Positions 5,157 through 17,879 of a stretch of 19,905 nt of DNA are shown one piece after another. Origin of the DNA: Butyriboletus loyo (taxonomy: Eukaryota > Basidiomycota > Agaricomycetes > Boletales > Boletaceae). Numbering within the stretch: the stretch's first letter is position 1; each line of letters starts with the position of its first letter. The translations under genes and the position numbers were made by a program. The stretch lies in contig JBBPSI010000351.1 in the NCBI GenBank assembly GCA_038093515.1, positions 1-19,905 of the forward strand, written 5' to 3'. The notes under the pieces are model-generated. The model did no database searches. It was given only the letters and a program-made list of their open reading frames with translations, and was not told the DNA's origin.

Positions 5157-6783
5157 TTGGCCAGTCTCAGATGGCATCTGTCTTCTTCGACTGCATTTCA
5201 ACACCGTTCCTGGAAACTACCATACCTAAAAAGTCCACCTTGTCCGAAGAGAATACACATTTTTCTGGTTTTACATATAGATTGTTTTCTCGAAGGCGTT
5301 GGAGTACTTCTTTTACTTTTTCCTCATGCTCTGCCCTCGTTTTTCCTTTTGTGAATATCATAACATCGTTGATATAAATAATGACACATGCATACATGTC
5401 GTTGAATATGTTGTTCATCATATTTTGGAAGGTGGGCGGGGAGTTGGTAAGCCCAAAGTACATGACGGTGGGTTCGTATGCCCCGATTGGTGTAACAAAT
5501 GCGGCTTTCCACTCGTCTCCTTCCTTAATACAGATGTTATTAAATCCCCATCAGAGGTCCAATGCAGTAAAGATATCGGTGCCTTTAAGCCTATCGATTA
5601 ACTGTGGAATCAGGGGTAATGGGTAACCGTTTTTAATGGTTCCATCATTTAGATAACGGTAGTCCATGACCAATCACTTGTCTCCAGTTTTCTTGGGAAT
5701 GAAGAACACAGGGGCCGTCTGAGGTGACTTTGATGGTCTTATGTAACCCTTCTTTAGTTCTTTTTCCATGAAACTCCTGATTTGGTCTTGTTCTTCATCG
5801 GACATTGGAATAATGCGACCCTTTTTTGGTATGAAATCGGGTTTGAGATCTATTGCATGATCCCAAGGTTTCCGCTCAGGCATTCTTGCTGCCTCGTCCT
5901 CGGAGAAAACATCTAAGTAGTCATGATATACAGTGGGTACTTTTTCAGCAACCCCGGGTTCTATCGTACAGCAAGAAGTAAGGTTTGATGAAGAAATAGA
6001 ATCTGCGATAACTTTACAGTAGGGAGAACAGTGATTGAAAGAAATAGTTTTGAAATGCCAATCAATGTCCGGATTATGGCGTGCGAACCAGTCGTAGCCA
6101 ATAATCATTTGATGAGAACCAAGAAGTGAAACGTAAGCCTCGATGGCTTCATAATGTCCATCAATTTCCATAAACAAGGAAGCTTTGTGCGTAATGCGAC
6201 CTATTGCTCCTTTAGAGCCATCAGCATTGATAACCTCCATGGATTTAGGTAATGGAATCAGATCAATTTTGCATGTATCACAATAGTTTTTGTCAATGAA
6301 GGTATTGACTGCTCCCGTATCCAGCAAAGCCTTAAGCGAACGAGTTTGCCAAGTAGCATTCAACTGGTAGGTGATTTTCACCACCAGGGAATAATCACCA
6401 CCGAACATCAAAGAAGATTTTGTAGGGGCTTTATAATTATAAGACGAAAGTGAAGATCGTGTGTTCATTTGTCTCAAAAGAGAATTAAGCACACACTTTC
6501 CCAGTGCCAAGCTTGTGATAGGAGACTCTCTTTCAGGTTCTATAGATATATTTTTTGACATACATGGAAAAGAATCATCATCATCCCCTTCGCAATCAAT
6601 CAATCCGGGAACATCTACGCTTACATCTGAAGATGAATTCGTAAATACTGAACTAATCGACAACTCAGGTTCCTTATCTAAAAGTTCATTTCCATCTACG
6701 TTAGAGTCTGAAAATGTACATAGTGAAGAGAAAGAATTGCAAAATGAAGAAGAAAAAGAAATATTGTCCAGTCCCTTAGACAC
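5157..6783 (-). pseudogene. Ty3/gypsy Pol remnant: aspartic protease and reverse transcriptase, truncated
   Basis: Seen: the -1 frame relative to gag opens before 6783 and runs to 5674, then continues in the same frame past stops to 5157. Order: an acidic Ser-rich spacer (about residues 1-120); aspartic protease with LLDTGAVNTFID (DTGA near residue 155); the RT start FMEKELKKGYIRPSKSPQTA; then [15 protein letters not shown]-stop-WGFNNI, MYFGLTNSPPTFQNMMNNIF and the active-site box YIND where the family has YxDD. Three in-frame TGA codons stand where the family has Arg (DK-stop-LVMDYR, LDL-stop-WGF, DAI-stop-DWP), consistent with CGA-to-TGA. The sequence ends at the RT thumb, so RNase H and integrase are missing; LTR C sequence abuts the cut. 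Dead: the catalytic Asp is lost as well. Confidence 0.88.
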
Positions 6784-11332: not shown

Positions 11333-12415
11333 TTAGTATGAAGTATATCCTTCTTTGGCTTTAATCACCTCCTGAATCCTTCTAGGCATACTCTCAATCA
11401 ACTCCTGACACTGTGCAATCCCAATCCTATCCCACTCTGCCTGTACACGCTCCCACAACTCCAAAACCCCCTTAGGTGACTCAGGATACTCTGCTAGCCT
11501 TCTTTTGAGAAGAAACCATAGGTGTTCTATGGGGTTGAGGTCTGGAGACTGAGCAGGCCACACCATGACCTCAAATCCATTGTCAGCAAACCACTCCTTG
11601 GCTCTCCTGCTGGTATGCTTGGGGTCATTATCCTGCTGAAAGATAATGTCCTCTGGAGTTTTTCCATAATACTGAAGGGTTTGTTGGAGTTCATCCTCCA
11701 TGATCTGCACATAAAGATTAGCATCCATCTTACCATCAATCTTGCAAGCCATTCCAACTCCTTCCCAGGTCATACAACCCCATATCATCACTAATCCTCC
11801 TCCAAACTTCACTATACCTTCCACCAGCCTATCACTTAGGCCCTTTCTGGCCTTTTTCCACACCCATTTCCTTCCATCTGACCCAATGCGATTGATTTTG
11901 GTCTCATCTGACCATATGACATGCTTCCAGTCCTCCACAGTCCAATCCTGATGGCTTAAAGCAAAGTCCATTCTTGCCCTCCTATGACGCATAGAGAGAA
12001 GGGGGTGTTTCTTCTTCACCACAGCCTTCCTGAGGTGACAACGAATGGTTTGGGGGGAGATGGGATGGTTCTTGATGTCCTGAAGAGTTTTGGTAACCTG
12101 GACAGCATTTTCAGCCTTCCCAGTACCAATAAGACAAATGACATGGCACATGTCAGTGGGAGTTATGAGGGATGGGCGACCACCAGAGGCTTTGAGTAGG
12201 TCTGGACAGTGTTTGGAGTGAAGTCTACTAATGGTAGAGTGGTTGAGACCAGTAGAATGTGAGATCTGGCAAGTGGATTGACCCATTTCCAGGCAGGAGA
12301 TGATTTGGTTGGTTTGTTTAATAGAAAGGGATTTCATGATGTAAGTAATGGAAAAAGCGATGGTGTTTTGATGTGTTTGCACAATGTTGAACTTCTTATG
12401 CATCACATGACCCAT
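11333..12415 (-). CDS. Tc1-like transposase, DD34E, intact
   Basis: Role: cut-and-paste transposase for the surrounding element. Seen (numbering from the first Met): a helix-turn-helix region (MKSLSIKQTNQIISCLEMGQ to about residue 70), a GGRPS linker, a second helix-turn-helix (about 90-135), then the DDE core with HVIWSDETKINRIG (Asp170), IIFQQDNDPKHTS (Asp262) and SPDLNPIEHLW (Glu297). The last two have 34 residues between them. It ends EVIKAKEGYTSY. No stops or frameshifts. Met27 (12335-12337) is a likelier start, because the HTH begins right there and 335 residues is a usual Tc1 length. The sole gene between the inverted repeats. All three catalytic residues are present, in contrast to every other transposon gene here except the right-edge gag. 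Confidence 0.95.
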   Translation of the reverse strand: MGHVMHKKFNIVQTHQNTIAFSITYIMKSLSIKQTNQIISCLEMGQSTCQISHSTGLNHSTISRLHSKHCPDLLKASGGRPSLITPTDMCHVICLIGTGKAENAVQVTKTLQDIKNHPISPQTIRCHLRKAVVKKKHPLLSMRHRRARMDFALSHQDWTVEDWKHVIWSDETKINRIGSDGRKWVWKKARKGLSDRLVEGIVKFGGGLVMIWGCMTWEGVGMACKIDGKMDANLYVQIMEDELQQTLQYYGKTPEDIIFQQDNDPKHTSRRAKEWFADNGFEVMVWPAQSPDLNPIEHLWFLLKRRLAEYPESPKGVLELWERVQAEWDRIGIAQCQELIESMPRRIQEVIKAKEGYTSY

Positions 12416-12749: not shown

Positions 12750-13846
12750 ATGTGCTTATGGGCCATGAGACTCAAGTTTCACTTTACCTGTGGATAGCTG
12801 ATACTGGCACCACTACACATATCACCAATAACTGAGATGTGATTACTGATTTTGTAAGTCTTAATAAAGAAATTCAAGGAATCAGTACCTTGTCCACACA
12901 AGCATTGGGACGTAGAAATTAAAAATTATGCACTCATGTTGGTGATAAATTGTACATAGTTGCATTGAGTAATGTACTCTATGCTCCTACTATTAAAACT
13001 AATGTACTGTCTATTGGATCCCTTGATGATGCAGGCAGCAGAGCCATAACCAGTAATGGTAAATTAAAGTTACTAAATCAGGATGGCCAGGAATTTGCCA
13101 AAGAGTGCATACTTAAGTGTGGACATAATCATGCCTGAAATGTCCAATACAGTATATACTAATGAGGACTGGGAAATCTGGCATAGGAAATATGGACATG
13201 TGAGCCTTGAAGGCCTGAAAAAATTATTTAATAAAAATCTTGATGGATTTAATGTTGACAAGCAATCACATGATTTTGATTGCAACACATGTATTCAGGT
13301 GAAGCAATCATGTGCTCCATTTTCTAAAGAGGCTTCTAACCAAGCCAATAAACCAGGTGGACTTATGCACACAGATGTGTGGGGGCCAGCCTGAGTTATG
13401 AGTATTAAGGGAGCTCGATACTACATAGATGATTGCACCAGACAGTACACAATATTATTTATGAAATCTAAAGACAAGACAACTATTAGAGTACAGGAAT
13501 ATCTATCCTATATAGAAACAAAATGGGCTATGAAGCCACAGCACATACGTGCCAATAATGGTATGGAATATGTCAATCAAACCTTATTGACATGGTGCCA
13601 TGAACATGGCATATAGGTGGAGTTAACCACTCCTTGCCCACCTTCCCAAAATGGTATAGCTGAGCCATTTAATCACACACTCCTTGAATTATTGCATGCA
13701 ATGATTATCACTAGTGATATACCTAAATATTTATGGCCTGATGTGGTAACACATGCTGCATATCTCAGAAATAGGTCATATACTCGAGCCCTAACAGACT
13801 TGACACCTGAGGAAATGTGGACAAATAAGATGTTGAACATATATTA
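12750..13846 (+). pseudogene. Ty1/Copia Pol remnant: protease, GAG-pre-integrase, integrase core
   Basis: Plus strand, largely one frame with stops. Order: protease motif YLWIADTGTTTHITNN; NVLYAPTIKTNVLSIGSLDD (end of the protease/pre-integrase linker); WHRKYGHVSLEGLKKLF and CNTCIQVKQS (His and Cys residues of the pre-integrase zinc finger); LMHTDVWGPA (first catalytic Asp); IRANNGMEYVNQTLL, where the family has RxDNGxEY so the second Asp is Asn; PSQNGIAEPFNHTLLELLHA (catalytic Glu region). It ends near LTPEEMWTNKML, before the reverse transcriptase. Stops: TGA after ITNN and after DVWGPA, TAG after HEHGI, all explicable as C-to-T from CGA or CAG, plus a TAA near 12925. Gag and RT are missing. 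Dead element. Confidence 0.87.
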
Positions 13847-14020: not shown

Positions 14021-15332
14021 TGTTATGACCGCAGGAGTAATCCCAACAGAACATATCACAAGCAGTTCACTACAAGTTGCAGCTCTACACAAAGAGCTGG
14101 CAAAGGTTTATAGAATGTAGCAGAGTACCTTAGTCCCTCAACTGTTTCCAGCAATCAAGACAAGTGGTTAAAGCTAAGGGATCTTAGCTCAAACCATGAG
14201 CCTTTATATATTGTACAAGATGGCACACAGACTGTTACAGTTTTACCCCTAAGCATACCCTGCCACTTGTTTTCCCACACTCATGTGTCCCCACTGCCCC
14301 TGCCATCCTGTGATGCTGCCCATCGCCTGCTCCCCAGTTGCTAGTGGATGTCATCCACTTCCCTGGTTGTTCCCAGATGTCTCTGTACCACAATACTGAG
14401 ATAACCCCTATGTTGCCACCCCATCGGGCTGGACCCTCAGCTGAGCTGTCACGTCTCTCTTTTCCTTTACCAATGACATTTGGTTCATCATGTGACTAGC
14501 ACATGACTAGATTATGATGTGTCTTTATCTACGTGCCAAGTCCTGTATCCAAGAGCTCTGCCATTCACGTCCCCTTTGCCCTGTGAGCCCCTCCTCATGG
14601 ACATTGTCACTTCACATTCAGACCTTCCTATTTGTTGATGATGTCACCATCTTGCTTAGAGCTTCACTCCCTCGTTATCGGCACTTTGCTGCTTTCCCAT
14701 TCACCATTATGACTTGAGACAACTCATAACCCTCCACCCTTGCTGCCATGCATAGCTTGGTCTGTGCACCATATCTTATAGTATATATATGCGTACTTAG
14801 ACAGTACGAGCTCTCTAGCTAATTCTACGCATCTACCAAGTGCCTAGCAATCTAGCATTATACCCTTCCTGCCAATAGAGCCGATTAAGAGCCTGCTTGA
14901 TCTTGTCTGGTCACCACCACATGACATCTTGCTGACACTAGCTCTGCAGAAGCCCAATAGCGTCATCTACGTGAGTCAGCACTTTCCTTATTAGGCTCGA
15001 GCCCCTATTCAAGCGCTCACTGCTAGTTGTTTCACACATCAGCATAACAGCACACAGACCAAGCTGCTCAGGTGCACAGACCTAGCTGTGCATGTGATAA
15101 ACTACTACATATGGTTAGACTAAGAAGCCAACAGCAATTAGAAAGAAGAGAAGCAAATGGAGATTAAGTACATGAGGTATGATGTCATAGTCTAGACTTT
15201 GATGATGTCATGGACCAGTCTGGACCATTATGTCATAGGCTCTGTCTAGATTCTGATTACATGTACTGTCCCATGACCTTTGAAAGTAAGAGGTGAAGTC
15301 CAAAGGTGTGGAAATAATATAGTATTATAACA
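14021..15332 (-). mobile_element. LTR family A-type, minus, split by an LTR B
   Basis: Left part 14021-14232 (TGTTATGACCGCAGG...AAGTGGTTAAAGCTAAG...TTTATATATTG). Right part 15050-15332, ending GTATTATAACA, with AGAAGAGAAGCAAATGGAG shared with other A copies. The LTR B at 14233-15049 entered at the GCACACAGAC promoter motif. Outer flanks CTTTC and GTACA do not match. Confidence 0.78.
14233..15049 (+). mobile_element. Solo LTR, family B, second full copy
   Basis: Starts TGTTACAGTTTTACC and ends CAGCATAACA, collinear with 1523-2342. Promoter TGGTCTGTGC (14758-14767), 14 nt, TATATATA (14782). Flanked on both sides by the 10-bp GCACACAGAC (14223-14232 and 15050-15059), longer than the 5-bp duplication of copy 1. 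More C-to-T changed than copy 1. Confidence 0.88.
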
Positions 15333-15383
15333 GTACATATATGCTCTCATCTCTATTCTCTTGTATTAATCATATTTCCAGAC

Positions 15384-16271
15384 ATGGATATATCTGACAC
15401 AGGATGTTACACATTGCTGAGAGAGACTGCAGCTGCATTGAATAATGCATCACTGCAAATATTGTCAGTTACAGCACAGGAGAGGAATATCCTGCTCTGT
15501 ATTGAGTATGCAGTCAGACAGTGAGTGAAACAATTTCTGGATGTAAAGCATAGTATATTGATACCATAAAGTGTCTTGGTACCTTATTCTGAGTCCAGGA
15601 CTGCTCAAAGGCAAAATCTCAATCTGGGTGAGGCATTGGCAAGTTGGTTTCCATACACAGGGGTAAGAATTTGAGTCATTTAAAAATTATTGGGATAAAT
15701 CTTCTTATGCTTGAATGATATTGATGGATGGCTAGGTAATTAACATTACATGAAATAAAAAAGAGCTTACTGATCAATTGATTAATTCTGTCCATGAAGA
15801 GAGTATGTGATACATTATGTATTGAAGTTGTGATAAGCTCACATGCTTTATCATACTAACAGGATGTAAGTGGTATATTGAAACAATTTTTTAAAGTTAA
15901 CCTATTCTATCACTCTTGCATTAAAAGCTGGTGAGTAATTTAATGCAGACTTGAAAATATGAGTTCTGTTTATGAAGGATTTGATTTCAAAGGAAGTAAG
16001 TCACAAAGGAATACATGCAAATCAGCACATTAATAATGGATTTGTTCATGCCTATTTCTATTTTGGTATCATTAGGAAGTAAGTGATCTGAAATACACTA
16101 GGAAAAAGTCTGGCTAATATATTGATGTTTGTTTTCATGTAACATAATAGGAAGTAAGTGGTCTGATTATACCTGAAAGACACAAAACTAATACTTTCAT
16201 ATCCATTAATATAAAGAAAGTAAGTGGCATATGAATGAAAATGTCCATCTCAGCAACTGCCATTTCCATGA
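15384..16271 (+). pseudogene. Unrecognised intron-rich gene with a run of 3-nt candidate microexons, 3' end lost
   Basis: I do not recognise the family. Exon 1 (15384-15520) starts MDISDTGCYTLLRETAAALN and ends IEYAVRQ. A 78-nt intron (15521-15598, GTGAGT...TCCAG) leads to exon 2 (15599-15662: TAQRQNLNLGEALASWFPYT, then a split Gly codon). The donor GTAAGA follows at 15663. After this no ordinary exon is seen. Seven AG-NNN-GT cassettes appear instead, each with a donor-like sequence: AGA 15800-15802 (GTATGT), GAT 15863-15865, CTG 15928-15930 (GTGAGT), GAA 15993-15995, GAA 16076-16078, GAA 16151-16153 and AAA 16217-16219 (GTAAGT for GAT, the three GAA and AAA). Intervals of 60-80 nt fit fungal introns. 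Joined, they stay in frame. The chromovirus LTR at 16272 cuts the gene. The 5' side may also be incomplete: TTTCCAG just before the ATG looks like an acceptor, and LTR A ends at 15332. Alternative: diverged tandem repeats. Confidence 0.5.
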
Positions 16272-16782
16272 TGTTATGAAGGCAACCAAGGGACTAAGCC
16301 ACTCAGAATACTATCACTTCACAGGTGGTAGACTCCAGTTGCAGTAGTACACAAACTACTGGTGATGGTAGAGAAAGAGCTATGACCTTAATTCTCAACT
16401 GTTATCAGTGAGTAGACAAGTGGTTAAAGCTAGGGAATCCTAGCCCAAACCACAAGCCTTATATATTATAGAGAACTGCACACAGACCAAGTAGTGCATG
16501 AGACTAATTACTATACAAGTACATACAAGTAGAAGTACAGGGTTGATGGAGATTAAATAGAAGCAACAGTGATCAAAAGGAAGAGAAGACAAACAGAGAT
16601 TAAATACATGAGGTGTGACATTATAGAGTCTGGGTCAGTCTAGACCATGACATCATATGCTTAGTCAGCCTTTGGTCACATGTATAATCCCACGATCATG
16701 TGCGCTAAGTCGTGTGATCTTTGAAAGAGAAATGGTGAAGTCCAAAGTGCAAAAGTCTGTTATAAGATATACAATTATAACA
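16272..16782 (-). mobile_element. 3' LTR of a chromovirus (family A2)
   Basis: On the minus strand starts TGTTATAATTG directly after the polypurine tract and ends GCCTTCATAACA, 511 bp. It carries a slightly decayed promoter motif (CACAGACCA near 16481) and a TATATAAG-type box. As the polypurine tract and integrase lie immediately to the right, this is the genuine 3' LTR. It ties the A/A2 LTR families in this window to chromodomain-bearing gypsy elements. Confidence 0.9.
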
Positions 16783-16797
16783 CTTCCCCCCCCTAGG
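16783..16797 (-). other. Polypurine tract of the chromovirus
   Basis: The minus strand reads CCTAGGGGGGGGAAG directly before the LTR start TGTTATAATTG. It overlaps the integrase stop codon (TAG, 16793-16795). It would prime plus-strand DNA synthesis. Confidence 0.85.
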
Positions 16798-17879
16798 ACT
16801 TGTATTCCAGACAAGTTCCTTGATAGGAGGTTCCATGTTCAGGACTGAATTCTTTAAATAATGATGAAAATTCAAACAAAAATAGGCCTTGTAGAGGTTG
16901 AGGGGCAGAAGGGTGGGCATGATGATAGTCTGCAATAACATCCTGTGAATTTCCCAGATTGGATACTGGTTCCCATGTCCTGTCCATCTCATCATAGCCC
17001 CTCCAGTGCATGAGGTACTCCAACTGTTTGCGTTTCATCCATGAGGCAACAATGTAGTCTACCTCGAATTCCATGTATCCTTTGTCTGTGATGTTGATGG
17101 GATCAGGACAGATGACAGGTTGCCCTGCAAGGGTTTCCCGATATGGTTTGATATGTGAAATGTTAACCACCAGATGAATTTGCATGCTGCTCAGCAGCTG
17201 CAGTTGTACAGCATTCAGCTTGAGAGCTATGATCTGGTATGGACCAATCCAATGCTGTGTGAGCTTTGGTGCAGTGTACAGTAACTTCAAGTTTTCTGTA
17301 CTCAGCTACACCTTGTCTCCAATTTGGTAATCAGGCACAGCTGATTGTCTATTATTGGCCTGTGATACCATTCACTTTCAAGCTTCTTCTAACACTTCTT
17401 TGATCTCAGCATGTGCTTTCCCAGCAGTACGTGTGAAATCTCCAGCCAATGTATAAGAAGACTTCTCAAACCCAATTCTAGGATAATAATTATGAGTAAT
17501 AGAAAATGGAATAGTATCCGTGGCAGTGGTAAGAGAGTTATTGTGATTGAACTAAGCAATCTTAATCCACTCAGTCCAGGTTTCTTGTTTTTTGGCCACA
17601 TAAGTATGTAAATATTGTTCCATTTCCCTATTTATCCTTTTGGTTTGACCATCAGATTGGGGATGATAGGCCATAGAGAATTTCTGGGAAATGCCAAGAA
17701 GCTTGCAAAGCTCTGTGGTAAAGTCTGATACAAATTGTGGACCACAGTCCTGAAACTATAGTAATAGGAAGTCCATGAATGCACCAAACATTGTCTCTAA
17801 ATATAGTAGCTAGCTCCTTAGAAGAGGTAGTCATCTTACAAGGGACATAAACAACTTCTTTGGAGAAGCGGTCGACTAT
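16793..17879 (-). pseudogene. Chromovirus Pol C-terminal part: integrase core, GPY/F module, chromodomain
   Basis: Minus strand. The integrase enters at VDRFSKEVVYVPCKMTTSSK, with IHGLPITIVS, then a 1-base insertion, then in the next frame CGPQFVSDFTTELCKLLGI, MAYHPQSDGQTKRINREMEQ and HTYVAKKQETWTEW. The expected catalytic Glu (QTER in the family) is Lys here. Stops follow near IKIA, EEA and DKV. The last open stretch (17290-16793) holds QHWIGPYQI (GPY/F module), NISHIKPY, and a chromodomain at about residues 73-125 (YMEFEVDYIVASW, KQLEYLMHWRGYDEMDRTWE). This ends at the polypurine tract. Known: the chromodomain steers integration to marked chromatin. Upstream pol is missing because LTR C starts at 17880. 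Dead element. Confidence 0.9.

Follow-up and report, generated by a model that had tools for sequence, protein, structure and literature searches.

Judging from the sequence of the window and of its paralogs, the gene copy described here is probably a truncated member of a multi-copy, Boletales-like GTPase family, in which one stretch of the protein would be built from tens of one-codon exons, diversified by recombination and maintained under selection. The window, i.e., the whole 19,905-nt stretch of DNA that was analyzed, is contig C351 of a 30.3-Mb assembly made of 420 contigs. If the arrays are transcribed as predicted, codon-sized exon arrays would represent a recurrent fungal means to vary a presumed recognition protein, occurring in two phyla and on two different nucleotide-binding scaffolds. 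The arrays are also an extreme substrate for asking how the spliceosome joins more than 50 consecutive 3-nt exons.

The window copy and its borders

The relic of the GTPase-family gene copy spans 939 bp of the forward strand (15333..16271) and comprises the end of an intron, exons 1 and 2, and seven one-codon cassettes with their introns. A previous, sequence-only reading had proposed two ordinary exons ahead of the cassettes, and these fit two segments with GT donors on the same strand: exon 1 (139 nt, 15382..15520, ...MDISDTGCYTLL...EYAVR), followed by GTGAGT and found in 12 copies in the genome both by DNA and by protein, and exon 2 (64 nt, 15599..15662, ...LNLGEALASWFPYTG), which ends in phase 0, is followed by GTAAGA and has 10 copies by DNA. 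Seven AG-NNN-GT cassettes follow, also on the forward strand, namely AGA (15800..15802), GAT (15863..15865), CTG (15928..15930), GAA three times (15993..15995, 16076..16078, and 16151..16153) and AAA (16217..16219). Their letters and positions are exactly those reported by that reading, and the recomputed spacing between them was again 60, 62, 62, 80, 72, and 63 nt. The suggestion that the encoded residues are mostly charged holds for the seven codons of the window (R D L E E E K) and not for the family, whose mid-array cassettes spell mixed residues.

The run of cassettes in the window is far beyond chance: the pattern AG-N3-GTRWGT had seven matches in 15599-16271, whereas 2000 dinucleotide shuffles gave 0.0445 on average and never more than 2; the pattern occurred twice more elsewhere in the window. 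When AG-to-donor spacings from 0 to 9 nt were scanned in the same interval, only 3 nt (seven matches) and 1 nt (one match) were represented. Tandem Repeats Finder returned no row within the cassette region of the window.

The window copy is a relic, cut at both ends by LTR-type repeats. On the right, a 511-bp repeat of the form TGTTA...TAACA (16272..16782, no strand assigned) interrupts the array just before the next cassette of the paralogs; it has partial copies elsewhere in the window, and its segment 16324-16413 matches 31 places in the genome. On the left, directly 5' of the relic, lies the end of a related LTR-type repeat (15123..15332, no strand assigned, with 15123 a working edge), which terminates in TATAACA and shares with the right-hand repeat patches of 71-85% identity. 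Homology of the window copy to the 11 other copies starts at 15333 (two of them start a few bases in) and in most of them breaks near 16271-16290. The GTPase part is gone from the window copy, where a tblastn search with residues 1-330 of the modeled protein retrieved only exon 1.

Paralogous arrays and protein relatives

Twelve exon-1 places were retrieved from the genome, with longer stretches for ten of them. As the sequence-only reading had proposed to verify, cassettes are present at matching positions across the 12-copy alignment, save one unit lost in the paralog L012. AG and GT were intact in 82 of 82 cells (the seven cassettes of the window in 12 copies, with two L012 cells gapped), that is in 12/12 copies for AGA, GAT, CTG, the third GAA and AAA, and in 11/11 copies with letters there for the GAA at 15993, whose unit is deleted in L012, and for the GAA at 16076. 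In the same alignment, all 28 AG/GT columns were invariant, as compared to 263 of the 524 other intron columns. L012 has lost exactly one unit and kept a clean cassette, which is what unequal exchange would produce.

In most copies the array runs on past the cut point of the window. Where both ends could be seen, in five copies (C6, C46 plus, C159 twice, and C149), it is predicted from sequence to hold 39-58 cassettes, a count that varies partly with the permissiveness of the donor pattern. The gene order in the paralogs is P-loop GTPase exons, conserved across nine aligned copies, then the array of 3-nt exons, and then ordinary exons, of which the last has 12 copies in the genome and a stop codon in none of them. 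The GTPase part of the paralogs corresponds to MMR_HSR1 in Pfam (27.9 bits against a curated cut-off of 21.9; 23.8 bits, same cut-off, for the whole modeled protein), and Pfam gave no match for the exon 1-2 part or for the last exon alone. A Foldseek search against PDB returned dynamin-like and G-alpha matches with a low TM-score. In the C8 copy (L015, L032, L049) the first part of the array lies about 8 kb from its last part and the last exon on the contig, so that something seems to have been inserted in the array. The C395 array (L045, C395:1-2800) has 17 codons, which repeat a stretch of the C75 array (L034), and the two contig ends may thus be one locus or two haplotypes.

One paralog, C149, was modeled in full, giving 69 exons, 58 of them of 3 nt, in one open frame of 538 aa over 6541 bp, with 67 GT-AG introns and one GC-AG intron. 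Cassettes were picked by pattern and spacing. The limits of the post-array exons, including those at the GC-AG intron and at a GTTTGT donor, were set manually, guided by the alignment and in such a way that the frame was preserved, which makes this part of the frame open by construction. One of the 58 cassettes is an AGG before a GTAAAT donor; cassettes of this kind (7 of 359) are doubtful because the relative P0003, discussed below, reads without AGG.

No stop codon occurred in the 359 cassettes of ten copies, for which about 10.0 would be expected from base frequencies, nor in the subset of 142 not ending in T (4.2 expected). Seven arrays found among ten additional places provided 123 further cassettes, again with no stop codon; 98 of them are new, since 17 duplicate cassettes of C75 and 8 come from the C46 minus copy aligned earlier. 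At the other three of these ten places, C274 (1186-bp contig end), C107 (1490-bp contig end), and C146, the cassette run was absent; C146 has the GTPase exons and no exon 1 match. Over the arrays, the distance from AG to GTAAGT was 3 nt in 275 cases, 1 nt in 11, 0 nt in two, 2 nt in one, and never 4-12 nt. Of 344 introns, 225 had a CTRAY motif 10-48 nt upstream of their acceptor, as compared to 87.8 in shuffled sequences. The unit motif TTGATAGNNNGTAAGTGG has 136 matches in the genome and its reversed control none, and 132 of the 136 sit in loci of the GTPase array family, the other four not having been placed. The intact AG and GT in 82 of 82 cells amid diverged introns, the phase 0 throughout and the open frame of C149 strongly support the initial view that conserved splice sites fit these data better than a plain tandem repeat. 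Based on these sequence data and on apparent cDNAs of relatives, the cassettes are very probably coding exons of one codon each, joined in the mRNA of this fungus.

A protein search with the C149 model returned 369 relatives, and the named genera among the best 120 of them were Butyriboletus, Imleria, Chiua, Boletus, Rhizopogon, Suillus, Pisolithus, Leucogyrophana, and Tylopilus. The closest named one among the matches listed was P0001, from Butyriboletus (74% identity over 62%). Six named relative species were checked and all belong to the Boletales, to which we take the remaining named genera to belong as well; judged by these relatives, the host phylum of the array family is Basidiomycota, and an ectomycorrhizal lifestyle of this fungus is likely. 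The double-cassette pattern was found in no stretch of the viral contigs and in three stretches of the bacterial genome contigs.

Five of the relatives (P0003, P0004, P0007, P0047, and P0054) derive from JGI contigs of 1.5-1.9 kb in which the GTPase part has no introns, and these contigs are therefore probably cDNA. Past the WFPH motif, all five proteins continue with a tract and then a C-terminal part. P0003 reads FANLDR, as do the cassettes of both C159 paralogs when AGG is omitted, a match of six residues only. P0004 and P0007 are identical at 247 of 299 residues before the tract, at 6 of 15 aligned within it and at 76 of 118 after it, the tracts being 15 and 29 residues long. A search with P0054 found 30 proteins, whose named members are all from Suillus. 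The C-terminal region, used as a query by itself, retrieved nothing but P0001, so that its likeness to the JGI proteins is drawn from alignments over the full length. Among the annotated relatives, P0001 ends soon after the WFPH motif, P0067 and P0122 pass from WFPH straight to the C-terminal part, skipping the tract, and P0118 and P0121 look like read-through past the exon-2 donor. These annotations suggest that gene predictors cannot cope with this region and that genes of this kind are cut short or misread when annotated automatically.

Codon diversity and its possible origin

Among 139 young units, diversity was 0.63 at codon position 1 and 0.72 at position 2, as compared to 0.056 at position 3 and 0 at AG and GT, considering that these units were picked by their match to the donor-side consensus and diversity on that side is lowered by construction. 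In the seven older cassettes of the window, the mean diversity of codon positions 1 and 2 was 0.294 against 0.122 in the introns, a value reached in 1 of 100000 resamples. The young 72-nt introns were identical in 24 of 69 cases, from four copies, and in the 303 unit pairs with identical 72-nt introns the upstream codon was common to 44 (14.5%, with 11.4% expected by chance), the downstream codon to 43, and both codons to 6. Such codon variation next to near-identical introns looks like a way to vary a protein stretch without breaking the gene. In the paralog arrays the ends of the tract were more conserved and its middle hypervariable.

Repeated codon strings were searched within and between copies, in arrays where assembly errors may have altered the order of identical units. 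Within copies, six strings of three codons were seen as compared to 2.7 in shuffled arrays (14 of 200 shuffles were as high) and two strings of four as compared to 0.3; between copies, the values were 14 vs. 8.7 for length three and 0 vs. 0.96 for length four, and the search found no string of five. This excess is only mild, and codon-block repeats were discarded as proof of recombination. Repeat-induced C-to-T mutation was likewise dropped as the source of codon variation, because all four bases were found at codon positions 1 and 2. In C158 (L043, C158:1-2800), nine GCT cassettes in a row would form a poly-alanine tract of one-codon exons, indicating that codons can be homogenized too. In the flanking exons, dN between paralogs was mildly below dS (0.138 and 0.259 for exon 1 of C6 and C46; 0.282 vs. 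0.533 for their last exon) and near parity in some close pairs, such as the last exon of C46 and C149 (0.043 and 0.044).

In the mechanism that we propose, all one-codon exons would be in phase 0, and the short introns between them carry strong signals, namely GTAAGT donors, a CTRAY branch motif (about two thirds of the introns) and, in young units, TTGATAG acceptors. These introns could be removed one by one through intron definition, and the joined codons would form a tract that links the GTPase part to a helical part at the C-terminus. As neighboring introns match each other, unequal recombination between them could add, remove or reorder single codons, leaving frame and splice sites unharmed, and selection would retain the new codons; the likely purpose would be to make a recognition surface diverse, in the manner of fungal nonself-recognition genes. 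We hold the chances to be evenly balanced that recombination between matching introns, together with selection, is the source of the codon diversity, and we assign a recognition function to the variable tract only tentatively. Also tentative is the wider picture of a codon-shuffling system, in which recombination would permute, add and delete single amino acids in an immune-type GTPase and produce a heritable, antibody-loop-like tract that arose apart from the mini-exons of truffle NLR genes. If true, recombination would use the introns as handles on single amino acids, which would be exon shuffling carried to its limit.

Since the mid-array units consist of near-identical 72-nt introns plus 3 nt, the array could also be a noncoding minisatellite inside one long intron, whose 75-nt unit contains AGNNNGTAAGT by accident and which the mRNA skips, as the direct passage from WFPH to the C-terminal part in P0067 and P0122 would imply. 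This appears improbable, considering that old units with diverged introns still have AG and GT in every aligned cell, that none of the 359 and 123 cassettes is a stop codon, that the codon bases are more variable than the introns, and that the tract is present in the intron-free JGI relatives. Alternative splicing, by which subsets of cassettes would be included and one gene would yield many tracts, and by which tract length could be tuned as the sequence-only reading suggested, deserves more weight, although we still deem it rather unlikely: every unit is 3 nt long and in phase 0, so that any subset holds the frame, and this kind of splicing is stated for the truffle mini-exons in the available excerpts of four papers (PMC4986451, PMC10197012, PMC3689799, PMC9815663). 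It does not, however, require the DNA itself to be hypervariable between copies, as it is here, and the near-invariant GTAAGT of the young units, themselves selected for a donor-side match, is at least as compatible with constant inclusion.

Two further explanations separate the history of the codons from that of the introns. If near-identical introns had recently been inserted into an older exon in the manner of introner-like elements, the codons would be old and the introns new, and the near independence of codons from intron sequence would be explained; nonetheless 132 of the 136 matches of TTGATAGNNNGTAAGTGG lie within loci of the family and are not spread over other genes, it would be unusual for introns to insert at every third nucleotide and always in one phase, and the old arrays of C6 and C75 are laid out in this same way although their introns have diverged, all of which makes this origin very doubtful. 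Mutation directed at codon positions 1 and 2, acting in place of selection after recombination, would account for their diversity of 0.63 and 0.72, as opposed to 0.056 at position 3, and for units with identical introns sharing codons little above chance. Selection on the amino acid combined with homogenized introns would, however, give the same picture with no need for a new enzyme, and we consider targeted mutation hardly likely. Precedents for such selection include the zinc fingers of PRDM9 and the WD repeats of Podospora.

Known systems and other features of the window

Iotti et al. in 2012 are said to be the source for the 3-bp mini-exons of truffles. The NACHT-ANK (nank) genes of Tuber melanosporum contain, according to the available excerpts of four papers, tens of codon-sized, 3-bp mini-exons that are alternatively spliced (PMC4986451, PMC10197012, PMC3689799, PMC9815663), and the statement of the sequence-only reading that no fungal gene built this way had been described is therefore not supported. 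On the same excerpts, both systems have tens of consecutive codon-sized exons, an expanded fungal family and a nucleotide-binding domain, but the truffle genes belong to the Ascomycota, whereas the array family described here belongs to the Basidiomycota and carries a GTPase of MMR_HSR1 type; in the modeled protein of 537 aa, Pfam gave no match at E 0.1 for either NACHT or ankyrin. The near independence of codons from identical introns was shown for the bolete arrays. The array architecture is thus known in one ascomycete family, and it is here new in phylum and in protein family, not a first.

The WD repeats of Podospora hnwd genes, as far as the consulted excerpts describe them (PMC4986451, PMC9815663), resemble the bolete arrays in having near-identical units, a few hypervariable and apparently selected positions, and exchange among units and family members; there, however, the protein unit repeats, whereas here the intron repeats, with one coding codon per unit. 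Immunity-related GTPases (Irga6, Irgb6, Irgb10, and GM4951) also count among the closest known systems. Isolated fungal microexons, represented by the one-nucleotide exon of Fusarium CYP621A (PMC12940212) and by the case of Trichoderma Xlr2 (PMC11121469), are, in the excerpts available, similar to the bolete cassettes as very small exons that annotation misses, but they are single exons in constrained motifs, as opposed to long arrays of variable codons. In a literature search limited to titles and the start of abstracts, with preprints and most subscription journals outside its scope, one-codon exons in a GTPase were not found among the papers listed.

The remainder of the window holds several further features. 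A chromodomain ORF (16793-17290, minus) adjoins the LTR-type repeat that cuts the array, and a GAG-pre-integrase ORF (13083-13394, plus) suggests a copia-type element. Pieces of a gypsy-type retroelement (5167-6783, minus) include ORFs for a reverse transcriptase (RVT_1) and a gag-type aspartyl protease. An uninterrupted ORF of 360 aa (11333-12415, minus) encodes a transposase of Tc1/mariner type, with matches to DDE_3 (60.9 bits) and HTH_Tnp_Tc3_2 (31.8 bits), and degenerate tandem repeats of 24, 48, 72, and 96 nt are located at 2401-2877, in a frame of 158 aa with a high content of G, P, K, V, and A.
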